Shown here: positions 47,162-59,556 of the stretch, piece by piece
Position numbering within the stretch: position 1 is the first letter of the stretch
Layout of the letters: every line of letters starts with the position of its first letter
Assembly (NCBI RefSeq): GCF_014850955.1
Contig: NZ_JACXSS010000001.1
Coordinates: forward strand, 3,968,001 to 4,032,000
DNA length: 64,000 bases
From: Methylomonas albis
GTDB taxonomy: Bacteria > Pseudomonadota > Gammaproteobacteria > Methylococcales > Methylomonadaceae
Reading direction: 5' to 3'
Translations under genes and position numbers: made by a program
The notes under the pieces: model-generated
Told to the model about the DNA's origin: nothing
Databases searched by the model: none
The model's input: the letters and a program-made list of their open reading frames with translations, nothing else

Positions 47162-49027
47162 CTACCGATTCGTTTTATCGATGCCCAATTTCTGCATACG
47201 ATAGCGCAAGGTACTGGGTTTAAGGTTGAGCAGTTGTGCGGCACCGTTGGGGCCTTCTATGACCCAGCGCGTTTGTTCTAGAACGCTAAGGATATGTTCT
47301 TTGGCGACAGTATCCAGACTGGTATCGCTGGTTTGAGCGAGTTTGACACCGTTATCGGCAATTGCGGGCAATAGCTCCGGCTCGACTTCCAACATCGGCG
47401 CATCAGCGAGTATCACGGCGCGTTCGATGACATTTTCCAGCTCACGGATATTGCCGGGCCAGCGATAGCTCTGCAAGCGTTGCATCGATTTGGCGCTGAC
47501 GCCGGTTATTTTTTTACCGATTTTCAGCGCGAATTTAGCGATCAAAAAATTCACCAGCAGCGGAATATCTTCCAGCCGTTCCCGTAGCGGCGGCGTGGTC
47601 AGCGGAAACACATTCAGACGGTAAAACAGGTCTTCGCGGAAATTCTTTTCCGCCACTTCGGCCAGCAGGTTCCGATTCGTCGCGGTAATCACTCGCACAT
47701 CCATTTTGATGGGTATTTGCCCGCCCACCCGCTCGAATTCGCGTTCTTGAATCACCCGTAACAATTTGACCTGCACATCCAGCGGAATTTCGCCGACTTC
47801 ATCCAGGAACAGCGTGCCGCCTTCAGCCAATTCGAAGCGGCCAATACGTTTGTTGATAGCGCCGGTAAATGCGCCTTTTTCGTGGCCGAACAATTCGCTT
47901 TCGATCAGGCTGGCCGGTAGCGCCGCGCAATTGACTTTAATCAACGGCCGGTTTTTCCGGGGACTGGCGGCGTGAATAGCGCGGGCGATCAGTTCCTTAC
48001 CGGTCCCCGATTCGCCTTGGATCAATACCGACGCATCAGTCTGCGCGACCCGTTGCACTTGGTTTAACAAAGATTGCAGCGCCGGACTGCGGCCTATGAT
48101 GTCGTCAAAATTATGCGTCGATTTAATTTCTTCCTGTAAATACAGGTTTTGCGCTTGCAGTCTGGCTTGTTCCCGTTCCATCAACACCCGTTCGGTAATG
48201 TCGATAAACATGGTGCGCATGTACTGGCGGCTGGGGTCGAGTTTGGACCACCACTGTATCCAGATCGGCTGGTCGTTATCCTTGCGACGCAATTCCAGGA
48301 CAACGCCATCGCTATTCGTACCGTCTTCGATGGACTTGAGCGCTAGCTGTAATCGCTGTTGGGCTTGCAAAGTATCGGGTATGAACGAGCTGCCAATCAG
48401 ACCCGGCACCTGTTCCGGGGTGATGCCCAGGATGCGCATGGCGGCCTGGTTAGCGGCCAGGAAACGGGTATCGGTATCCTCGTGCACATAAGCAATCGGC
48501 GCTTCATCGAATAAGTCCTTATAGCGCTGTTCGCTTTGCTTTCGCAGTTCTTCGATGCGAATCCGATTAAGCTCCGCCGCCGCCCTGGCCGCGAAAATCT
48601 TGAACGTATAGAGCAATCTCGGTTCTTCGGGCATCGCCCGCTCATCGTATATCGCCAAATGTCCGAGGATATGACCGTCGGCATCTTGTAGCGGTACGCC
48701 AAGATAACTCTCTACGCCTTCTTCCTTGGGAAATATCTTTGAAAGGTCAGACGGGTAATGACACAGCTTGCCGGCCAACACGTCCACACAGGGCGTCCCC
48801 GCCAGTTCCCACTCTTGGTTGTCGATAAATTCGCCTTGCGTCCAATAAGCCAGGGACCTTATCCGGGTTTTATCAACGGTGAATTCGGCAATGAAGCCGT
48901 TCGCAACGTTGGTGGCAAGACACAGATTCCGCACCAGAGACCGTAAAAAGTCCTCGCCGGTGGTTTGTACTGTGCCTTCCACCAATGCTCGCAGTATGGC
49001 GAGTTCCGACGAATTGACTGTTTGCAT
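47162..49027 (-). CDS. Sigma-54 activator with GAF and PAS sensor domains
   Basis: A 621-residue FhlA-like activator. A GAF domain fills about residues 15-165, a PAS domain about 170-290 ([10 protein letters not shown]), and the AAA+ domain carries [18 protein letters not shown] and R-L-N-V-F-P-L. A Fis-type helix-turn-helix ends the protein ([14 protein letters not shown]). There is no receiver domain, so a small molecule or redox signal probably acts through GAF or PAS. The start ATG at 49027 is the most natural; upstream in-frame starts exist. It is divergent from the bufferin operon, whose promoter has a sigma-54 element. Confidence 0.9.
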
Positions 49028-49168
49028 GAGTTTTGTAATCCGGTTGCTAACGCTACCGGCCATTCTAACCAGTGGATTCCACAATACCAAGCCACAACTA
49101 TTCGCGGCAGCCGCAATTATTGGTGGCCACAAGAAACGTATGACCTTGGTTAAAATTCGCCATACCTT

Positions 49169-49212: not shown

Positions 49213-49230
49213 TTGGCATGCCGATTGCCA
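49213..49230 (+). promoter_or_regulatory. Sigma-54 (-24/-12) promoter of the bufferin operon
   Basis: TTGGCATGCCGATTGCCA contains GG at 49215-49216 and GC at 49227-49228 with exactly 10 bases between, and matches the TGGCAY-N5-TTGC consensus except for one position. Transcription would start near 49240, leaving a leader of about 55 bases before the precursor gene. The adjacent divergent gene encodes a sigma-54 activator. Confidence 0.75.
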
Positions 49231-49296: not shown

Positions 49297-49575
49297 ATGA
49301 AAAACGTAAACACTGTTGTATCGACCGCCATGGCTTCACTGATTGCCTTGGGTGCTTTGGGCTTGCAATCCGAAGCGTTTGCCGCCGACAAAAAAGACGT
49401 AGAGAAATGTTACGGCGTCGCCAAAGCCGGTAAGAACGACTGCAAAACACTCTCCAATGCCTGTGCCGGGCACTCCACTGCCGACAATCAAAAAGATGCG
49501 TTTATCGCCTTGCCTGCCGGTAGTTGCGAACGGATTGTCGGCGGCAGCCTGGAAGCGCCCGCGGATATGAAATAA
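49297..49575 (+). CDS. bufA1: BufA1-type bufferin precursor (DUF2282)
   Basis: A 92-residue precursor with a signal peptide (cleavage near A-F-A-A, residues 27-30) and four cysteines in the mature part: Cys38 in E-K-C-Y-G-V-A-K-A-G-K-N-D-C, Cys49 at its end, Cys56 in N-A-C-A-G-H-S and Cys77 in A-G-S-C-E-R-I-V-G-G-S. This is the DUF2282 pattern of bufferins, peptides whose cysteines are oxidised to thiooxazole-type heterocycles by a BufB/BufC pair and which bind copper in the periplasm. GGAAA lies ahead of the ATG. It is the first gene after a sigma-54 promoter. Confidence 0.9.
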   Translation: MKNVNTVVSTAMASLIALGALGLQSEAFAADKKDVEKCYGVAKAGKNDCKTLSNACAGHSTADNQKDAFIALPAGSCERIVGGSLEAPADMK

Positions 49576-49618
49576 CACCATGGCCCCCGTTCCCTTAACT
49601 CACTTTTAGTAGCTTCTT

Positions 49619-50719
49619 ATGAAAAACACATTCAAACGTACGGCAATTTCGCTTTGCCTGGCTTCATGCTTGCCTACGCTGGCTTTTGCCGATTATCGCC
49701 ACGAATCCGAAGAAACGCTGTACACGCTGTCCAACGCTGCCGTTCAGAATGAAGTGCTGGCATTTCAGCGCGCTGACGACGGTCATATGGAAGCCGTCGG
49801 CAGTTATGCCACTGGCGGCGTGGGAACGGGCAGCGGCCTTGGTAATCAAGGTGCTCTGGCGCTGAGCGAGAACAAACGCTTTCTGTTGGCGGTCAATGCC
49901 GGCAGCAACGATGTTTCGGTATTTCGAATTGAGCGGGACGGGCTCAAACTCGTCGATCGCGCCGCTGAACAGGGCTTGACGCCGGTTAGCGTGACCGTCA
50001 GCCATAACCGGGCTTACGTGGTTAACTCGGGCGACGATTCGATTTTCGGTTTCGAGTTCAATCCGGCCACCGGCAAACTGAAACCGCTGGCAAAATCCTA
50101 CCGTAAACTCAGCGCGCAAGGTTCCGGTCCGGCGCAAATCAGCTTTGATAGGGATGCGGACGCCTTGGTGGTGACCGAAAAAGCCACCAATAAAATCACC
50201 AGCTTTTCTTTGACCGAACAGGGTTTGCCGCACAGCCGCCATATTGTCGATTCTTCGGGAACCACGCCTTTCGGTTTCTCTTTCGGCCGGCACGGCCAGT
50301 TCTTTGTGGCCGAGGCCCAAGGCGGCGCGGTGAATGGCGCTACGGTTTCATCTTACCAATTGGAGGAAGACGGTTCTGCTCATCTGATCGATGGCGCGAT
50401 TGCGGTCGGGCAAACGGCAGCCTGCTGGCTGGTAACCACACCGAACGGCCGCATCGCATTTACCGCCGATACCCCGGCCAGTGCCATCTCCTCGTTCGCT
50501 ATCGATCGAACCGGACACCTCGACTTGCTGAATTCGAAAGCGGCCGAAGAAATTCGGCCGACCGATTTGGCCATGGCCACCGATGGTTCGGTTCTGTACA
50601 CCTTGAGCGGGGGTGACCACAGCATCGGCGTATATAGCATCAACAAGACTGGCGCCCTGAAAAAGTTGGAAAGCCTGGATACCTTACCGGCGGGCGTGAC
50701 CGGACTGGTCGTTCGTTAA
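49619..50719 (+). CDS. Secreted lactonase-like beta-propeller
   Basis: A 366-residue protein with signal peptide (cleavage near A-F-A, residue 24) and repeated blades of the 6-phosphogluconolactonase/muconate-lactonising type, for example F-L-L-A-V-N-A-G-S-N-D-V-S-V-F and V-L-Y-T-L-S-G-G-D-H-S-I-G-V-Y. Catalytic residues of lactonases cannot be confirmed by eye. It is placed between the bufferin precursor and bufB, where these operons usually have bufB directly, so it may bind the mature peptide or its metal, or act in the same stress response (inference). Confidence 0.8.
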   Translation: MKNTFKRTAISLCLASCLPTLAFADYRHESEETLYTLSNAAVQNEVLAFQRADDGHMEAVGSYATGGVGTGSGLGNQGALALSENKRFLLAVNAGSNDVSVFRIERDGLKLVDRAAEQGLTPVSVTVSHNRAYVVNSGDDSIFGFEFNPATGKLKPLAKSYRKLSAQGSGPAQISFDRDADALVVTEKATNKITSFSLTEQGLPHSRHIVDSSGTTPFGFSFGRHGQFFVAEAQGGAVNGATVSSYQLEEDGSAHLIDGAIAVGQTAACWLVTTPNGRIAFTADTPASAISSFAIDRTGHLDLLNSKAAEEIRPTDLAMATDGSVLYTLSGGDHSIGVYSINKTGALKKLESLDTLPAGVTGLVVR

Positions 50720-50749
50720 ACCGCTATTCGCAAACAGATAGAGTACGAC

Positions 50750-51631
50750 ATGGCCCTCACTCAGCAACAAGCTAGACATGCATCAGTGAGCTCGACGATT
50801 CCGGCCCGTGCCGGAATCGGACTCCGCTCGCCGCATCATCAGGATGCTTTACTCAGCCCCGTCCGGACTGGATGGTTGGAAGTGCATAGCGAAAATTATT
50901 TCGGCCAGGGCGGTATTCCGTTACGCGACCTGGAAGCTATCAGGGCCGATTATCCAATCAGCCTGCATGGCGTCGGCATGTCCCTGGGTTCCGTCGACGA
51001 GCTGGACCGACAACACTTACGCCAATTGCAAAATCTAATTCAACGCATCGAACCGGGATTAGTGTCCGAGCATTTAAGCTGGAGTTCCTTTGGCGGCAGG
51101 TATCTGAACGATCTGCTGCCGATGCCTTATACCGATGAAACGCTGACTCATTTAACCGCACGCATCTCTCAGGTACAGGATTACTTGGGCAGACAGCTAT
51201 TGATCGAAAACCCGTCCAGCTATCTCGAATACGGCTTTTCCAGTTATTCGGAAAGCTCATTTATCAATGAACTCGCGCAACGTTCCGGCTGCGGCATTTT
51301 GCTGGACGTGAATAATGTCTATGTGTCCTGTGTCAATCACGGCTGGAATGCGCTGGATTATTTATCGGATATAGCCGCTGACAAAGTCGGCGAAATTCAT
51401 CTGGCGGGGCATGCCGTCAAAACAGTAGGCGAGCAGAGCATTCTGATCGATACCCATAACGCACCGGTCAGCGACGCGGTCTGGCAACTGTACCAAACTG
51501 CAATTCAACACTTGGGCAACCGCCCGACCTTGATCGAATGGGATGCCGATTTACCCGCATGGCAAGTGTTAGTGGCGGAAGCCGCCACAGCCGATAGGTA
51601 TTTGGAGCAGGCTTATGTACAGGCTGCATGA
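50750..51631 (+). CDS. bufB: BufB: MNIO-family oxidase (DUF692) for bufferin maturation
   Basis: A 293-residue TIM-barrel protein of the multinuclear non-haem iron oxidase family. Likely iron ligands occur at Glu48 (H-S-E-N-Y), His73 (S-L-H-G-V-G), His108 (S-E-H-L-S-W), Glu153 (I-E-N-P), Asp186 (L-D-V-N-N), His217 (E-I-H-L-A-G-H) and Glu263 (I-E-W-D-A-D). Such enzymes oxidise precursor cysteines using oxygen. It overlaps bufC by 17 bases, as is usual for this pair. Confidence 0.93.
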   Translation: MALTQQQARHASVSSTIPARAGIGLRSPHHQDALLSPVRTGWLEVHSENYFGQGGIPLRDLEAIRADYPISLHGVGMSLGSVDELDRQHLRQLQNLIQRIEPGLVSEHLSWSSFGGRYLNDLLPMPYTDETLTHLTARISQVQDYLGRQLLIENPSSYLEYGFSSYSESSFINELAQRSGCGILLDVNNVYVSCVNHGWNALDYLSDIAADKVGEIHLAGHAVKTVGEQSILIDTHNAPVSDAVWQLYQTAIQHLGNRPTLIEWDADLPAWQVLVAEAATADRYLEQAYVQAA

Positions 51632-52385
51632 TCTGCAACGGGATTTTTCCCGCTTCGTTTGCCAAGAAACCCAACGATTGCCCCCGGACATAATGGCTAA
51701 TGGCTTGAGTGCCGCGCAACGTTTAAGCATTTATCGGAACAATACCCGGCTGGGTTTAACCGAAGCATTGCGCGACACCTATCCGGTGGTGAACTGCTTG
51801 GTCGGCGACGCGTTTTTTAATCGGCTGGCGGCCGACTATGTCAAATGCTATCCGTTGCAAGCGGCCAGCTTACTGACATACGGCGGGCATTTCGCCGAAC
51901 TGATAGCCCGGTTTGAGGCGGCGCAAGATTTACCGTATTTAGCCGATATCGCCAGGCTGGAATGGCTATGGCATGAAGCCTATCACGCAGGCGATGCACA
52001 GCCTTTGCCGCTGTCCGCACTTGCCCGTATCGATCCGGCTCAATACGCGCAATTGGCATTCAGGCTGCATCCCAGCGCACGCGTCATCGCTTCGGATTAT
52101 CCGATAGAACGGATCTGGGCAAGCAACCAGCCTGAATATCAAGGTCGTGAATACATCGATTTAGTTGCAGGTGGCTGTCGTTTACTGCTTTACCGACCAC
52201 AATGGCAGGTGGAAATCCATTATTTGGCAGCGGACGAATATCAATTTTTAACGCTACTGGGATCCGGGCAGGCCCTCAATCAAGCGGTCGAAACCGTGAT
52301 GCGCGATCACCCCGATATAAATATTCCGCTCCTTTTGCAACAGTGGTTGCGCAAAGGCTTATTGACCGATTTTTATCTGGTTTGA
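51615..52385 (+). CDS. bufC: BufC: DUF2063 partner protein
   Basis: A 256-residue DUF2063 protein. The N-terminal domain has R-L-S-I-Y-R-N-N-T-R-L-G-L-T-E-A-L and V-V-N-C-L-V-G-D-A-F-F, and the C-terminal half (R-L-L-L-Y-R-P) fits the precursor-binding domain that delivers bufferin to BufB. The start at 51615 gives the usual M-Y-R-L-H-D-L-Q. Overlap with bufB implies translational coupling and complex formation. Confidence 0.92.
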   Translation: MYRLHDLQRDFSRFVCQETQRLPPDIMANGLSAAQRLSIYRNNTRLGLTEALRDTYPVVNCLVGDAFFNRLAADYVKCYPLQAASLLTYGGHFAELIARFEAAQDLPYLADIARLEWLWHEAYHAGDAQPLPLSALARIDPAQYAQLAFRLHPSARVIASDYPIERIWASNQPEYQGREYIDLVAGGCRLLLYRPQWQVEIHYLAADEYQFLTLLGSGQALNQAVETVMRDHPDINIPLLLQQWLRKGLLTDFYLV

Positions 52386-52395
52386 TGTTACTGAT

Positions 52396-52917
52396 ATGAA
52401 CACACAAAACATATGCAAACTGATAGCACCCTTTTATCAAGCGAACGGCCGGTTTTTTAGATTCGTAAGCCTATTGGATAAGCTCGTGCCCTTGGGCAAT
52501 TTAATCCTGCGTTGCTGGGTAGCCTATGCGTTCTGGGTGTCGGGTTTACTCAAATTACAAAGCTGGGACAGCACCTTGTACCTGTTCGAAAACGAATACG
52601 CCGTGCCGCTATTGCCGGCAGAATTTGCCGCCATGTTGGGCACGGTGGTTGAACTGGCCGGTCCGCTGTTATTGGCAAGCGGTCTGTTTGGGCGGGGTGC
52701 GGCTGCGCTGCTGTTTCTGTTCAATCTCGTCGCGGTAATGTCCTACCCCGATTTGGGAGCAGCCGGCATTGAGCAGCATAAAGAATGGGGCATCATGCTG
52801 CTCGTCTGTTGGTTACAGGGATCGGGCAAGTTATCGCTCGATGCAGGGATAAAACGATGCCTTTTTCCACTGGTCGAATACAGCGTAGCGACGGCAAAAA
52901 ATCAGGAGAAAACATGA
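52396..52917 (+). CDS. DoxX-family membrane protein
   Basis: A 173-residue protein with four hydrophobic segments and the DoxX features S-G-L-L-K-L-Q-S-W and A-A-M-L-G-T-V-V-E-L-A-G-P. DoxX-like genes are common at the end of bufferin operons, where they may serve redox or thiol chemistry in the membrane; direct evidence is lacking. It starts 10 bases after bufC and its stop overlaps the next ATG (ATGA). Confidence 0.88.
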   Translation: MNTQNICKLIAPFYQANGRFFRFVSLLDKLVPLGNLILRCWVAYAFWVSGLLKLQSWDSTLYLFENEYAVPLLPAEFAAMLGTVVELAGPLLLASGLFGRGAAALLFLFNLVAVMSYPDLGAAGIEQHKEWGIMLLVCWLQGSGKLSLDAGIKRCLFPLVEYSVATAKNQEKT

Positions 52918-53645
52918 ATGCGTCAAATACTGCGCCGCCACTACAAGGCCAAACGGCATTAGTCGTTCAAGCCCATACGGGTATTGGTGCCGCGGTAGCG
53001 GAAGCGTTCGCCGCGGCCGGTGCCAAGGTGATGATTAATTATCTACATGAAAACGCGGGAGCCAACCAGGTTGCGCAACGTATTCGCATCAAACAAGGAC
53101 ACGCCATGATATTTCAAGCCGATGTTAGCCAGGAAAATCAAGTTAAAAGCATGTTTGATGTCCTTGTCGCTTATTGGGGTGGCCTGAATATATTGGTCAC
53201 TAATACCGAGTTGGACATTGATGGCTGGACGGGGAATATCAATCCGGAGCAATGGCGGGGAATCCTTATTCAGAATCTGAGCGGGCAATTTCTGTGCGTT
53301 CGGCAGGCCATGCGAGAATTTTCCAGACAAGGCTCCCGGCCTGAATCGCCAAGTTCAGCCGCCAACATCCTCTGTGTATCCTCTTTACAAAATGTTTCAA
53401 GTCCGCCCGGGCAAGTCAGGTACGCCGTCTGCAAGGCGGAGATGAGTAGTTTGTTCAACGCTTTTGCTTCAGAGTTGAATCAAGAAAATATCGACATTGC
53501 TCTCGCTTCAGCAATTACTCCCTGCGTTGCTGAATATGCGTATAGCTACCAAACGCCGGCAATAGCATCAGGCTCGACAGCGCTTATTTCGCGCGAACAG
53601 CAGGATATCGCAACAACCGCTGTCGGCTTGGCCGCGCTTGTATAG
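52914..53645 (+). CDS. Short-chain dehydrogenase-like protein with altered cofactor motif
   Basis: A 243-residue SDR-fold protein. The catalytic Y-A-V-C-K and an upstream Ser (V-S-S-L) remain, but the glycine-rich loop reads V-Q-A-H-T-G-I-G instead of T-G-x-x-x-G-x-G (Val18-Gln19 in place of Thr-Gly), the N-N-A-G motif is T-N-T-E, and the usual P-G segment after the active site is lost. It may bind NAD(P) weakly or be a pseudoenzyme. The ATG at 52914 overlaps the DoxX stop and has GGAG upstream, so it belongs to the bufferin operon; an in-frame ATG at 52785 inside DoxX is rejected. Confidence 0.75.
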   Translation: MNASNTAPPLQGQTALVVQAHTGIGAAVAEAFAAAGAKVMINYLHENAGANQVAQRIRIKQGHAMIFQADVSQENQVKSMFDVLVAYWGGLNILVTNTELDIDGWTGNINPEQWRGILIQNLSGQFLCVRQAMREFSRQGSRPESPSSAANILCVSSLQNVSSPPGQVRYAVCKAEMSSLFNAFASELNQENIDIALASAITPCVAEYAYSYQTPAIASGSTALISREQQDIATTAVGLAALV

Positions 53646-53696: not shown

Positions 53697-53865
53697 ATGA
53701 AGCCCTACAAACCACTAGCCATCCCCCTCTTCGGAAATCACGCCGCAATCCTTGTTCGACGCTAAAAAATCCGCTTGCAGCGTGAGGGAACAGCAAACAC
53801 CACTGAAGGATGATAGCCGTTACAACAACTTTTATGAGTTTGACACCAGTATTTTAAAGCCATGA
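53697..53865 (+). pseudogene. msrP: Remnant of msrP (methionine sulfoxide reductase catalytic subunit)
   Basis: Only N-terminal pieces survive. From the ATG at 53697 the frame reads M-K-P-Y-K-P-L-A-I-P and is then shifted at a run of five C (53722-53726); removing one C restores P-S-S-E-I-T-P-Q-S-L-F, the usual MsrP start. After 13 unrelated residues the same frame gives Q-T-P-L-K-D-D-S-R-Y-N-N-F-Y-E-F, the MsrP/YedY signature, and then stops at 53863 overlapping msrQ. The signal region and the whole molybdenum-cofactor domain are missing. Confidence 0.8.
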
Positions 53866-54497
53866 CTATTAAAAATCTCGATAACCGCGCCCTGAGCTGC
53901 GTTAAAACCCTCGTGTTTTTACTGGCCTTGCTACCGCTAACCAAATTGGCCGTAGCCGCTTATTGGGACAATTTGGGCGCCAATCCCATTGAAAAAATCA
54001 CCCATAACACCGGATACTGGGCTTTGACCTTTTTGCTGATTACCTTGGCAGTCACCCCGCTACGGCGGATGTCGGGCTGGCTATGGTTGATACGTTTACG
54101 GCGCATGCTGGGCTTGTTTGCGTTTTTTTATGCCACACTGCACTTATCAACCTATTTGGTTTTGGACCAGTTTTTCGATTGGGACGCAATGGGGAAGGAC
54201 ATCGTCAAGCGGCCTTATATCAGCATCGGTTTTAGCGCGTTCATCATGCTGATTCCACTGGCCATCAGCTCCAGCGACGCCGCGATCCGGCGCCTGGGCG
54301 GCAAACGCTGGCGGGCATTGCACCGCTTGATCTATCCTTGCGCCGTTGCCGGTGTGGGCCATTTTTGGTGGCTGGTGAAGAAGGATCTAACCAGGCCCGT
54401 TATTTTCCTCGTATTACTGGGTTTGTTACTGGGCATACGCTTGGCTTACCGCTATTTAAACAATCGCAAACAAAAAGAAACGCTGTATGCGAACTAA
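53862..54497 (+). CDS. msrQ: MsrQ: haem-binding membrane subunit of the MsrPQ system
   Basis: A 211-residue membrane protein of the ferric reductase-like family with about six transmembrane segments. It keeps haem-binding histidines (T-L-H-L-S-T-Y and L-H-R-L-I-Y with G-H-F-W-W-L) and the R-R-M-L-G-L-F-A-F-F-Y-A motif. MsrQ passes electrons from the respiratory chain to periplasmic MsrP, which repairs oxidised methionine. Here its partner gene is reduced to a remnant whose stop overlaps the msrQ start, so MsrQ is either idle, served by an MsrP elsewhere, or used for another electron acceptor. Confidence 0.92.
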   Translation: MTIKNLDNRALSCVKTLVFLLALLPLTKLAVAAYWDNLGANPIEKITHNTGYWALTFLLITLAVTPLRRMSGWLWLIRLRRMLGLFAFFYATLHLSTYLVLDQFFDWDAMGKDIVKRPYISIGFSAFIMLIPLAISSSDAAIRRLGGKRWRALHRLIYPCAVAGVGHFWWLVKKDLTRPVIFLVLLGLLLGIRLAYRYLNNRKQKETLYAN

Positions 54498-54750: not shown

Positions 54751-55194
54751 ATGAACTCATACAGACCCTTTATTTTGGCAACTACTGTTATTCTCGGAAT
54801 AGCATTAATCAGCGGCTGTTCGTTTTCCACCAGTTCCGAAAGCTCGTCCGACAGTAGCACTGGAATCTTCAAAAGCGCCTCCAGTCCATTTACCTCCAGC
54901 TCCGACTCGTCGCGTAACAAGCACGATAAATACGAAACCGACGTGGCCGACTATACCGCTACCTTCGTGGTATCCAGCAGCGGTTCGCTGGATAGTTTTC
55001 GCGGGCGCATCAGCGAACTGGCCGAAAGCCACGAAATTACCAATTGGGAAAGCGACCGCGATACTTACGTGGGCATAGGCCGTGGACTTGCTAAAGCCGG
55101 GCTCGGCAAGCCGCAAATTTCGGCATTTACCGAAAGTTTGAGCAATAACGAGCCTTGGAAGAAGCAAGCCATCGAAGAAGGTTTGAAAAAATAA
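54751..55194 (+). CDS. Small serine-rich lipoprotein
   Basis: A 147-residue lipoprotein with lipobox L-I-S-G-C (Cys23), a Ser-rich linker of about 35 residues, then a compact domain (D-Y-T-A-T-F-V-V-S-S-S-G-S-L and W-E-S-D-R-D-T-Y-V-G-I-G-R-G-L) that I do not assign to a studied family. It precedes the Lnb-like gene by 26 bases, so the two are likely one transcript with linked periplasmic roles. Confidence 0.75.
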   Translation: MNSYRPFILATTVILGIALISGCSFSTSSESSSDSSTGIFKSASSPFTSSSDSSRNKHDKYETDVADYTATFVVSSSGSLDSFRGRISELAESHEITNWESDRDTYVGIGRGLAKAGLGKPQISAFTESLSNNEPWKKQAIEEGLKK

Positions 55195-55220
55195 TTCGTC
55201 CACCAATCGCCCACTTAGCT

Positions 55221-57137
55221 ATGCCGATTGCTGGCTTGAAAAGCGCAAAGTGGGCGCTGCCGCTGGGCCTTTTATTGTGGATTACCGTTGCCGAAGCCGA
55301 CCTCGGTCATCACTTAGAATTCCTGTACATAGATGCCAACGAAGGCAGCGCCAGCGGCGGTCATGCCGCGCTTAAATTCGACCAGCAGGTCTTTCATTTT
55401 CAGCACATCGAACCCGGCCTGCTGCGTCTATACCGCAACGATGCTGCGGCTTTTGAATTTGCCTACGGCTTTCAGGAAAATCGCAGCATATACGGCCACC
55501 GCATCGACGTAAATGCGGATTTTTTCCAAGTGCTACGGGATGCCTTTAATCGCCGCCTGCTAATTCAAAACCAGCAATTATCTCTGCTGCAAGCACTGCA
55601 CGACGATCAAGCTCTGGCGTCAGACTTGCAAAATCCTGGTATGGCACCGCATATCTCGGTAAAAGGCCTGGGCTATTTTTTGACGCAGTATCGGCCGACT
55701 GCAACCCTACCTGTCGCTAGTGCCAATATTGCGCCCTCTAGCCAAGCGCTACAACAACTCCGCGACGCAATCGTCAAAGAATACGGACAAAACTTCTTGG
55801 TGGATAAGCGCCAGCAAACGTGGCAAAACTTGCAATCCCTCAAACCGGAATTAGCGTTTAAGACGGCAAGTGGCGAGCTGACAGATATGCGCTCTACCGC
55901 TACCAGCAGCGCATTTGCCGAGCGTTACCGCAATCAGTTATTGAATATGGCGGCAATGGATGTGCTACAAACAGGCTTGTCGCCGCGCACCGAGAGTTTA
56001 TTAGCTCTGCCGGAGGCCACATTCAAACTCAGCGCCGCGCAGCTTGCCAAGCTACAAGATTTTAGACAACGCTTATTGGCTGATTTAATTTCCCTGATGC
56101 GCAGCCAACGCAACGACTGGGGTTATCCACTACTGGTGGGCATGGCCCGCTTGCATGCGTTGGACTATTCCATCGCCTCGGGTTATCTGATCGTGTTGAA
56201 TCGCAGTCGCTCGGAAAATGACGATCCGCAAGCCACCATTATCGAGGATGCCAACGTGCCGGCAGCGCTGCAGTACAGTCAGCAGGTGTTTATGGCGGCG
56301 TCGGGACATCTCGATAGCCCCGCAGCACTTGATGAACTAGCTTACTCGGAGCTTGAGCTGAGCGCGACAGCGCTTATGCAATTGCATAAGCCGCGCGAGG
56401 ACCAGCAGCCTTTGAAATTGCTGCCATTGACAACTACCCCGTCGCGGCCGGCGGCGGCCGAACTGATCGGTTTGCCGATACCAGCAAAGAAATTGGCAGA
56501 TTTCCAAAACACTGTAACCGAGCAAATCGAAATATACCAAAATCAACTGCAGTCCCTGTATGGCTACAACCTGCTTAACCGCAATTGTGTCACTGAGATT
56601 TTCCGAGTCGTCAATCAGACTGTGGCCAGCATGGCAGTGGCAAACCAGGAAAGTACAAGGCAGGCATCACAACAGCTGCTGGGCGGTTACATGAATGAAC
56701 AGGGCTTGAACATGATTCCGTTTGTCGCCTACGCGCATATCGCTGATACGTATCGACTAAGCGCCAGCTTCCAACGCGAGCCCTACAGAGAGAGACGGCG
56801 TCAACTGCGTTACCGGCAGATGCCGCAATGGCAGGTGGATTTGCAGGAATCCAACGTCCTCAGCTCGACGATCTACGACCGAAATAGGGAAGACGCAGCA
56901 TTTTTATTCTTCACTCAAGATCAGATCTGGCCCAGACCATTGCTGGGTGGCTTCAATCTCGCAGTAGCTGGCGGCCAGGGGCTTTATGGTCTCTTCAGCT
57001 GGCCTTGGGATAGCGGGGATAATCTACACAAAAGCCTGAAAGGCATTGTCGTCAGCCTACCGGAGCTACTGTTCTTCAACATCCGTAAAGGCTCGTTTCC
57101 GGGATTGCTGCCAGAGGTAGGAATATATGTACCCTGA
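55221..57137 (+). CDS. Lnb/DUF4105-like periplasmic protein
   Basis: A 638-residue exported protein. After the signal peptide (cleavage near V-A-E-A) comes an Lnb N-terminal type domain with E-G-S-A-S-G-G-H-A-A-L-K-F; much later, near residue 450, is N-L-L-N-R-N-C-V-T-E-I-F. The His and Cys of these segments fit a permuted papain-like (NlpC/LRAT-type) catalytic pair, suggesting a peptidase or acyltransferase, which is inference. The ATG at 55221 is chosen because the frame upstream overlaps the lipoprotein gene. Confidence 0.72.
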   Translation: MPIAGLKSAKWALPLGLLLWITVAEADLGHHLEFLYIDANEGSASGGHAALKFDQQVFHFQHIEPGLLRLYRNDAAAFEFAYGFQENRSIYGHRIDVNADFFQVLRDAFNRRLLIQNQQLSLLQALHDDQALASDLQNPGMAPHISVKGLGYFLTQYRPTATLPVASANIAPSSQALQQLRDAIVKEYGQNFLVDKRQQTWQNLQSLKPELAFKTASGELTDMRSTATSSAFAERYRNQLLNMAAMDVLQTGLSPRTESLLALPEATFKLSAAQLAKLQDFRQRLLADLISLMRSQRNDWGYPLLVGMARLHALDYSIASGYLIVLNRSRSENDDPQATIIEDANVPAALQYSQQVFMAASGHLDSPAALDELAYSELELSATALMQLHKPREDQQPLKLLPLTTTPSRPAAAELIGLPIPAKKLADFQNTVTEQIEIYQNQLQSLYGYNLLNRNCVTEIFRVVNQTVASMAVANQESTRQASQQLLGGYMNEQGLNMIPFVAYAHIADTYRLSASFQREPYRERRRQLRYRQMPQWQVDLQESNVLSSTIYDRNREDAAFLFFTQDQIWPRPLLGGFNLAVAGGQGLYGLFSWPWDSGDNLHKSLKGIVVSLPELLFFNIRKGSFPGLLPEVGIYVP

Positions 57138-57960: not shown

Positions 57961-59556
57961 TTAACGTATGACAGAGGGTGTGAGTTGCCAAGGTAACAGG
58001 GCTTCAAAATCTTCTGCCGTTTTTGCCAAAGGCAGTTGCCGGAACACGGCAATCAAATAACCATAAGGCTCAATGCTATTGGCTTTGCAGGTTTCGATGA
58101 GCGAATAAAGACTGGCGCTGGCTTGTGCGCCACCCACCGTGTCGCTGAACAACCAGTTGCGACGGCCAATCACAAAGGGGCGAATCGCATTTTCGCAGGC
58201 GTTATTATCAATCGGCCAGCGGCCGTTCTCGACAAAACGGATCAGTTTTGGCCATTGGGCTGACAGGTAATGCAGTGCTTTGCCCAGTAAACTGTTAGGC
58301 ATCACGCCATGCAGGTGTTGTAGCAGCAGTGTTTCGATATTGGCCAGGATCTCGCGACTGTGCGTTTGCCTGAATTGCAGACGTTGTTCGGGACTGGCGT
58401 CTTTGGTCCGTGATTCAATGGCGTACAACTGGCCAATCGCGGTGATAAAGCGTGTCGCTAGTGGCTCAGACACTCGGGCTGGTTTGGGCTGCGCGGCTTC
58501 GGCTTCGACGAAATAGCGTCGGGCATGCGCCCAACACCCTAAGTGAATCAGGCCGTGACCGGCAGCCAAACCGTTATAGACCTCATAACCATCGCTCATC
58601 AGAACGCTGCCGGGTTTGATGCCTTCGTATAAGGGTTGCGCCTGGCTACGACCACGCCCCGGGGTATAGCTGAACAAGCGGATCGGAGGCCCAGAATCGG
58701 TCATCTGCACCCACAAATAGCTCTTGGTCTGTGCTGCGCGCCCCGGTTCTTTGAGCACTTGCACCACGGTCTCATCACCGTGAATGACATCCGCTTCCAG
58801 TAGTCGATCCCGCAACAGATTAATCAAAGGTTGCAACGCATGTCCTACGCGCACCACACTCGCAGCCAGCGTACTGCGGGATAAATCACCGCCAAAACGG
58901 CTCAACAGCGCGGCTTGCCGGTATAACGGCAGGCCGTCCTGATATTTACCGGTAATGACCCAGGCCAGTGCCGCCTCGGTGAGCAAGCCTTTCGGAATAA
59001 TCCGCACTGGTGCCGGGGTGACCCGGATACTGTCATCACAGCAGGGGCAGGCATATTTGATGCGTTGATGCTGTATCACCCGCACTTGTTGTGGAATGAT
59101 GTCCAGCTGTTCACTGATTTCGGCACCGATTTCCACCAATGGGCTGCCATCATGCGCGCATACCCGTTCCGACTCTGGCAATTCATGACGGACAATCTCG
59201 CGAGGCAGATAAGGATCCAGCGGCTTGCGACCGCGTTTCTTGCGGCTATGGGGGGCGATCTGGACTTCAGTATCGGGAATGCTTTCTTCAGCCACCGGCT
59301 GTCCGGTGGGCGCCAACGCTTCGGCTTCGTTGATGAACAAGTCGCGCTGAGCAGGATTAGCTCGGGCTTCAGATTTGGCAGCAAACAGCTGCCGTAAAAA
59401 GGCATCGACCCGCTGCTTGAGCAGATCACGCTCGACGGTGACTACACGTAGTTGTTGGGTGAGCATATGCACCAACTGCTGGTCAGCTAACCACGACTGC
59501 CGCTCGGCCAATAAGGCCGCATATTCGTCAGATGTCAGCGTGATAGTCGTCGTCAT
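57961..59556 (-). CDS. tnpC: IS66 transposase TnpC
   Basis: A 531-residue DDE transposase. The N-terminal coiled coil, a zinc-finger segment (Y-A-C-P-C-C) near residue 170, H-G-D-E-T-V near residue 265, L-G-C-W-A-H-A-R-R-Y and the catalytic glutamate in D-N-N-A-C-E-N-A-I-R-P are all present. Full length and undisturbed, so probably functional. A second, broken tnpC fragment lies at 60725-61083. Confidence 0.95.
   Translation of the reverse strand: MTTTITLTSDEYAALLAERQSWLADQQLVHMLTQQLRVVTVERDLLKQRVDAFLRQLFAAKSEARANPAQRDLFINEAEALAPTGQPVAEESIPDTEVQIAPHSRKKRGRKPLDPYLPREIVRHELPESERVCAHDGSPLVEIGAEISEQLDIIPQQVRVIQHQRIKYACPCCDDSIRVTPAPVRIIPKGLLTEAALAWVITGKYQDGLPLYRQAALLSRFGGDLSRSTLAASVVRVGHALQPLINLLRDRLLEADVIHGDETVVQVLKEPGRAAQTKSYLWVQMTDSGPPIRLFSYTPGRGRSQAQPLYEGIKPGSVLMSDGYEVYNGLAAGHGLIHLGCWAHARRYFVEAEAAQPKPARVSEPLATRFITAIGQLYAIESRTKDASPEQRLQFRQTHSREILANIETLLLQHLHGVMPNSLLGKALHYLSAQWPKLIRFVENGRWPIDNNACENAIRPFVIGRRNWLFSDTVGGAQASASLYSLIETCKANSIEPYGYLIAVFRQLPLAKTAEDFEALLPWQLTPSVIR

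Follow-up and report, generated by a model that had tools for sequence, protein, structure and literature searches.

Probable sigma54 control of a bufferin operon with an inserted beta-propeller gene in Methylomonas albis

In many methanotrophs the choice of methane monooxygenase depends on copper, and the acquisition of copper by methanobactin is well studied; how the methanotroph periplasm is protected from the metal is less clear. A locus that bears on this question lies in a 64,000-nucleotide stretch of the genome of Methylomonas albis (contig NZ_JACXSS010000001.1, positions 3,968,001 to 4,032,000; hereafter the window). Here an operon for a bufferin, a putatively copper-buffering ribosomally synthesized and post-translationally modified peptide (RiPP), carries a beta-propeller gene between the precursor gene bufA1 and bufB, the gene of the multinuclear non-haem iron-dependent oxidative enzyme (MNIO) that would mature the precursor. 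What is a propeller doing there? A preliminary description, made from the letters alone, proposed an expanded metal-handling pathway in which the propeller binds or processes the mature peptide. Our analysis favours, with reasonable confidence, a reading in which this Buf1 bufferin operon is switched on by its own divergently transcribed bacterial enhancer-binding protein (bEBP), the propeller being an accessory of one methanotroph regulon in which such an activator and sigma54 serve bufferin, MsrPQ, cytochrome P460 and propeller genes. The propeller is most likely a movable extra on the same switch, rather than a partner in bufferin maturation or copper binding.

The six genes bufA1, propeller, bufB, bufC, doxX and SDR (short-chain dehydrogenase/reductase) stand in that order on one strand (+), with coordinates essentially as first described, and open reading frames (ORFs) together with Pfam and NCBIfam scores confirm the order (Table 1). 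They are tightly packed: 43 bp separate bufA1 from the propeller, 30 bp the propeller from bufB and 10 bp bufC from doxX, and the other junctions overlap (the SDR start with the doxX stop, as ATGA). BufA1 has four cysteines (C38, C49, C56 and C77) and, like the propeller, a signal peptide as judged by eye; it is of the DUF2282 (Buf1) type, the BufA2 model NF050166 having been rejected at 31.7 against a cut-off of 60. BufB also scores 352.7 in the Pfam family MbnB_TglH_ChrH (cut-off 25). That the operon is a bufferin operon of a methanotroph likewise stands: the nearest named relative of the propeller, 96% identical, belongs to Methylomonas methanica NCIMB 11130 (genome G024, locus L063). The unit is wider than first described: its limits are the bEBP gene (47162) and msrQ (54497), and it takes in the promoter region and a remnant of msrP. 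The earlier account had missed the activator, the enhancer and sigma54 promoter, the msrP–msrQ end and the occurrence of the same enhancer elsewhere.

To see how common the arrangement is, we surveyed 121 genomes (that of M. albis and 120 relatives), extracting the bufA regions and mapping the operon genes there by tblastn. A DUF2282 precursor occurs in 28 genomes, and it is of the window's type (at least 65% identical) in 21 and of another type (42–57% identical over the matched part) in seven. All 21 window-type loci have bufB, bufC and doxX; an SDR gene, at least partial, follows doxX in 16; and an intact msrP lies close downstream in 14 (one cut by the contig end), in addition to the window's remnant. 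Cytochrome P460 is found inside the buf operon at three of the 21 (L041, L043 and L177). The operon is not a chance assembly, because relatives keep the same genes. Its doxX and SDR tail is ordinary for such operons, and the propeller is the sole unusual part. Propeller matches at E 0.001 occur in 29 of the 121 genomes, 16 of them (M. albis included) at 57% identity or more, and a search for propellers between bufA and bufB found three cases among the 28 bufA-bearing genomes: the window, G024 and G013. With so few, the propeller is rejected as an obligate bufferin partner. The order in G013 is bufA–propeller–bufA–bufB, tandem precursors flanking the propeller; this direct-repeat layout (L035, 7936–9695) could excise or insert the propeller by recombination.

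The case for a common switch starts upstream of bufA. Scored against the sigma54 consensus YTGGCACGrNNNTTGCW, as given in PMC5874634, a site matching at least 10 of 12 positions lies 76–98 bp before the bufA start at 18 of the 21 window-type loci and at none of the seven other-type loci; when the 400-bp upstream regions are shuffled base by base, 0 to 4 of 200 shuffles attain such a match. Further upstream are two tandem palindromes (CCRCNANNNNTNGYGG) 3 bp apart, first read by eye in upstream regions. A 16-mer matrix typed from 13 non-window promoters, themselves read by eye, places this enhancer dyad at most 250 bp upstream of bufA at 18 of the 21 window-type loci and at none of the seven others. 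Ten of the 13 are among these 18 promoters; the eight held-out bufA promoters (window, L041, L043, L162, L163, L170, L171 and L178, several of them near-copies of trained ones) were all found, and the sites outside buf operons were held out as well. The dyad occurs once in the window and in none of ten window shuffles (these, like the sigma54 shuffles, preserve base make-up only), and it is absent from 61 control loci comprising 896,811 bases, some overlapping records and the seven other-type loci included. Its end lies 86–88 bp from the promoter at the 18 bufA loci. Finally, a profile model (R1) was built from 19 sites, among them those of the window, L055, L056, L061 and L181, and therefore speaks to uniqueness rather than independent discovery: in the M. 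albis genome the window site scores E=7.8e-9 and the next-best place 0.016, and 21 of 31 chosen genomes have a match at 0.05.

The candidate activator is encoded divergently from bufA. Its frame opens with an ATG at 49027 (some of our queries began at 49036, nine bases before it), and the protein matches Sigma54_activat (251.3 bits), GAF (30), PAS_4 (28.6) and HTH_8 (27.6), all above the Pfam cut-offs, with a GAFTGA loop at residue 385 and a Fis-type helix-turn-helix (HTH). At E 1e-120 it has matches in 27 of the 121 genomes, four at 48–51% identity and 23 at no less than 64%, of which one is cut off by a contig end and one has a TAG within its frame. Twenty of these 23 genomes also have bufA, in 17 of them as the divergently transcribed neighbour of the bEBP gene; G018, G073 and G115 have the bEBP and no DUF2282 match. 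In a wider sample of the class, matches at E 1e-150 occur in 4 of 369 genomes, M. albis included; the other three are 47–48% identical, and two of them have a nearby relative of the query genes, an SDR only, within 1.5-kb flanks beyond which buf genes could lie. NorR, NifA and FhlA give the best NCBIfam scores of the bEBP, all below the equivalog cut-offs (361.2 against 476, 412.1 against 528.85 and 402.9 against 830, respectively), and orthology to any of the three was rejected. In G018, bufB and SDR fragments (L181, 6326–6951) lie behind a 12/12 sigma54 site and an enhancer dyad, with the bEBP and msrPQ intact; this looks like a decayed buf operon.

The same dyad and promoter also precede propeller genes outside buf operons. 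In Methylomonas sp. SURF-1 (G012, L061), they stand before a P460–propeller operon with a spacing of 65 bp, and the buf operon, on another contig, has its own dyad; a profile search of this genome at E ≤0.05 returns exactly two places, the bufA and the P460–propeller promoters (both sites, or near-copies, are in the training set). At L055 and L056, dyad and sigma54 site precede propeller–msrP–msrQ next to a bEBP gene, and the L055 buf operon has a dyad too; the spacing is 89 bp at the two L055 promoters and at L056. The L055, L056 and L061 sites were outside the scan matrix. In G018 (L181), the pair stands before msrPQ, 127 bp apart, and in M. koyamae (L060) and G005 (L043) the propeller lies 1.0–1.2 kb downstream of a buf–P460–msrPQ operon. 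Counting the 16 loci at 57% identity or more together with L055, L056, L057, L065, L066 and L096 gives 22 close propeller loci: three inside buf operons, three with a strong site of their own, two with weak sites and two downstream of a buf operon. In a tree of 38 propeller copies, L056 groups with the three in-operon copies (SH-aLRT 95), and this group sits inside a clade of 16, mostly from methanotrophs (support 100).

Several observations weigh against such a regulon. At the remaining 12 of the 22 close propeller loci, nothing in the DNA examined (1.5-kb flanks for G090, a 5.9-kb contig for L066) ties the propeller to buf, the bEBP or the enhancer. The bEBP-adjacent propellers of L058 (= G115, Methylocaldum 14B) and L096 (a Methyloversatilis-labelled metagenome-assembled genome, MAG) have weak dyads (22.7 and 24.5) and sigma54 sites that match at 9 of 12 positions without the GC of -12; moreover, the L096 propeller is broken, and the L055 propeller frame (MAG) has an internal stop. 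At bufA itself, three of the 21 promoters are without a full sigma54 match (L041 and L043, with TTTGTA at -12, and L177) and three loci without a dyad in the scan (L165, L175 and L177). The bEBP is not adjacent to bufA in G034, G005 and G007, where bufA still carries the enhancer; its frame holds a TAG in G096; and G073, G096 and G115, although they have the bEBP, are among the ten genomes in which the profile search gave no match at E 0.05. As for the propeller, the three in-operon copies alone group with a support of 38, and no fewer than two changes are required on the 21-row bufB tree to account for its insertion, so that it is dispensable even within the genus.

Taken as a mechanism, the favoured reading would run as follows. 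The bEBP would bind the tandem 16-bp palindromes about 87 bp upstream of the -24/-12 promoter and activate RNA polymerase–sigma54, as the anatomy and conservation of these sites suggest, presumably on a metal or oxidant signal. BufB and BufC would mature BufA before its export, and the bufferin would buffer copper. The operon would thereby be a periplasmic metal/oxidant defence set made of BufA, BufBC, DoxX, the SDR and, in many relatives, MsrPQ, which may repair oxidised methionines as the copper-induced MsrPQ of E. coli does (PMC9302797). The exported propeller would have been recruited into the regulon, within the buf operon in three genomes and before msrPQ or behind P460 elsewhere, and would act alongside bufferin under the same stress and not in making it, propeller and P460 being optional periplasmic helpers.

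By sequence, the GAF region of the activator matches no solved structure at 0.01, so that no known sensor can be named. Five of its residues (C80, C89, H90, H123 and M132) are invariant in all 22 distinct core bEBPs (23 core rows, in which L128 is the window's own gene again; the partial G040 protein and the second G115 copies were left out), and C89 and H90 are kept in 23 of 26 rows once the three distant homologues (47–48%) are added. With this Cys/His/Met set, the bEBP might sense Cu(I) or redox state directly and drive the sigma54 promoters of bufferin, MsrPQ, P460 and propeller as a one-component copper/oxidant regulon of gammaproteobacterial methanotrophs, a proposal that we make tentatively and would not call probable. 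If true, it would be the first sigma54-controlled bufferin system known to us, possibly with a metal-sensing GAF-bEBP. A rather unlikely alternative is that the operon answers nitrogen-oxide or reactive-chlorine stress instead of copper, the bEBP working like NorR. P460 genes do belong to the regulon at L061 and to buf operons at L041, L043 and L177, MsrPQ responds to HOCl in E. coli (PMC9302797), and NorR is among the families that score the bEBP best, NifA and FhlA being the others and all three falling below cut-off. However, the constant members at 21 of 21 loci are bufABC and doxX, P460 being in three of those operons, and the GAF part, without a solved sequence relative, points to no known sensor.

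Could the propeller instead be a passenger, that is, a mobile stress gene whose insertion into the operon means no more than co-transcription? The family does travel in other company: among 45 named propeller loci, an OmpR-type response regulator and a HAMP kinase lie within 3 kb at 20 (L067 a weak match), with two-component neighbours at 12 of 13 Nitrospira-type loci (the record of L093 ends just past the propeller). Patchiness in the genus and the repeated change on the bufB tree also fit a passenger. Yet a passenger would not need the enhancer and promoter that the separate propeller operons (L055, L056 and L061) share with bufA, and the propeller frame is intact and 96% identical between the window and G024. 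We regard this explanation as unlikely. A propeller remnant was sought in the roughly 135-bp bufA–bufB gap of G023, G025 and G036, by eye in three-frame translations, and none was seen.

In the wider family, the Nitrospira loci L073, L081–L085, L087–L090, L092 and L099 have a recurring block in which the propeller is accompanied by a VTT protein, a disulphide reductase, DUF3047, a two-component system and often an extracytoplasmic function (ECF) sigma factor; at one of these loci, L082, Pfam identifies the neighbours as a MerA-like disulphide reductase, a VTT protein, DUF3047 and an ECF sigma factor. In Methylosinus sp. Ce-a6 (L097, 8001–12129), a propeller relative (42–44% identical) lies 2.2 kb from an MNIO gene 45% identical to bufB. 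ORFs around some loci came from a simple script and no gene caller.

A role in maturation or copper delivery, along the lines first proposed, in which the periplasmic propeller would bind the peptide once mature, or its metal, seems quite improbable. Its appeal lies in the position of the gene, close between precursor and MNIO in the window and likewise in G024 and G013, in an apparent signal peptide (by eye) like that of the bufferin, and in the presence of AztD among the Foldseek matches. AztD is a propeller with a metal role. Against this, the propeller is outside the buf operon in 25 of the 28 bufA genomes, and some copies that share the enhancer lie at a distance from any bufA (G012, L061) or next to msrPQ. 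Most named propeller loci, including those of Nitrospira and Bacteroidota, have no buf gene in the DNA examined; a buf link is thus absent in many relatives, although not in all. Over 34 propeller sequences (alignment A1, in which rows L036, L037 and L039 start at a position other than their own start codon), E187, C269, W270 and D316 are invariant and K188 and E232 nearly so; no conserved His or Met was found and C269 is the single invariant Cys, which makes a dedicated copper site unlikely. What survives of the expanded pathway is the tie through the enhancer and promoter common to separate propeller operons; processing or binding of the mature peptide is not supported.

The AlphaFold (AF2) model of the propeller (pLDDT 89.5) predicts seven blades, and its best solved match is 6nau_A (Z 38.0, 314 residues aligned, 2.4 A, 19% identity). 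The closest solved folds are 6-phosphogluconolactonases (YbhE/Pgl), a YVTN propeller and PpgL, and many other, unrelated propellers score just below, so that the fold alone names no function. Likeness to the Lactonase-family propellers YbhE/Pgl and the periplasmic PpgL lies in the Pfam family and the fold (Z 36–38, 2.3–2.5 A over 311–317 residues); identity is 16–19%, and the archaeal YVTN propeller ties at Z 37.4. A 6-phosphogluconolactonase was rejected, since NF008258 (PGL) gives 53.3 against an equivalog cut-off of 370. In the periplasm, the propeller may bind a ligand or carry out a lactonase-like reaction.

MmoR activates soluble methane monooxygenase (sMMO) through sigma54 and has a GAF domain in some methanotrophs (PMC5874634). 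Identity of the bEBP with MmoR, which would make the operon part of the copper switch, is highly improbable: the bEBP gene adjoins bufA in 17 of 20 genomes and has no match at E 1e-120 in G087 (M. capsulatus Texas), MmoR being set apart here by context and not by alignment. The two systems share a copper-linked pathway, the sigma54 consensus and a bEBP; their target genes differ, and orthology of the bEBP to MmoR is not indicated.

The core of the locus is a known one. A genome-wide survey (PMC12452194) defines the Buf1 core as precursor, MNIO, DUF2063 and DoxX. According to it, some Buf1 clusters also have ECF sigma/NrsF genes, EGKCG/oxazolin precursors have molybdopterin oxidoreductase and ferric-reductase genes nearby, and the proportions of additional conserved genes are extremely low. 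Our operon agrees in its four-Cys precursor with a signal peptide (by eye), BufB-class MNIO, DUF2063 partner and DoxX. It differs in having a sigma54 bEBP in place of ECF sigma/NrsF, in the propeller that parts bufB from bufA, and in the SDR, MsrPQ and sometimes P460 and propeller genes within the operon; the words propeller, lactonase, SDR, short-chain and enhancer do not occur in the main text of that survey. In E. coli, copper induces MsrPQ, which in turn supports the efflux of the metal (PMC9302797). The hiuH–msrPQ system described there, under HprSR/CusSR, resembles ours in placing periplasmic methionine repair under a regulator that responds to copper, as the bEBP may do, but it is under two-component regulation and has no RiPP, whereas here a one-component bEBP is found. 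We found no description of such a sigma54-controlled bufferin operon in searches of the open-licence literature, and the words propeller, lactonase, DUF692 and DUF2282 do not occur in an M. capsulatus copper transcriptome report (PMC4831470). Relative to the literature searched, sigma54 control and the propeller are thus new. A regulator with a defined and nearly genome-unique enhancer, within a 260-bp region, offers a direct route to the inducing signal and to the list of co-regulated proteins. Shared control would also tie a RiPP metallophore to methionine repair and P460, and it gives a test of function for a propeller family that is widespread from methanotrophs to Nitrospira.

Table 1. 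Features of the buf locus, in window coordinates
Feature	Position	Strand	Description	Score or match
bEBP	47162..49027	-	621 aa; GAF-PAS-sigma54 AAA+-Fis HTH activator, divergent from bufA	
Upstream enhancer	49092..49126	+	two 16-bp palindromes CCRCNANNNNTNGYGG, 3 bp between	
sigma54 -24/-12 promoter	49214..49229	+	83 bp before bufA ATG	10/12 consensus positions
bufA1	49297..49575	+	Buf1 bufferin precursor, 92 aa	PF10048 (DUF2282) 86 bits, cut-off 22.4
propeller	49619..50719	+	predicted seven-bladed beta-propeller, 366 aa	PF10282 (Lactonase) 95.9 bits, cut-off 21.7
bufB	50750..51631	+	MNIO bufferin maturase	NF050167 (MNIO_BufB) 387.6 bits, equivalog cut-off 310
bufC	51615..52385	+	DUF2063 partner of MNIO	PF09836 75.6 bits, cut-off 27.2
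doxX	52396..52917	+	doxX-like membrane protein	PF07681 58.1 bits, cut-off 23.6
SDR	52914..53645	+	short-chain dehydrogenase/reductase	PF00106 (adh_short) 97.9 bits, cut-off 26.6
msrP remnant	53697..53850	+	broken frame; pieces of first ~80 of 310 codons	
msrQ	53862..54497	+	haem-binding subunit, periplasmic methionine sulfoxide reductase	NF003831 194.1 bits, cut-off 130

The msrP remnant was recognized by tblastn (44% over residues 10–81 of 310) and by a blastn match to the intact msrP at the corresponding spot in the close relative G024. The M. albis genome has two further PF00174 genes with msrQ alongside, 74% and 49% identical to the G024 msrP, and these two msrPQ loci may cover the function.

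Elsewhere in this genome (on C1, at about 4.86 Mb), a second MNIO gene (L052, 7724–9909), 38% identical to bufB, is accompanied by a VTT-domain gene and a DUF2063 partner of the NGO1945 type; no DUF2282 gene was found at that locus. Downstream of the region, the window holds a 660-aa open frame without a Pfam match (55155–57137), directly after a putative lipoprotein gene (NF033171), and an IS66-family transposase (57964–58986). Dyads also occur past the 3' ends of some bEBP genes: L036 (11095), L096 (3994), L143/L174, L182 (10491) and L186 (10349). Those of L036, L182, L186 and L096 are weak, each about 110 bp from a sigma54-like site, and in L036 and L182 the dyad is followed by a small ORF that looks STAS-like by eye.

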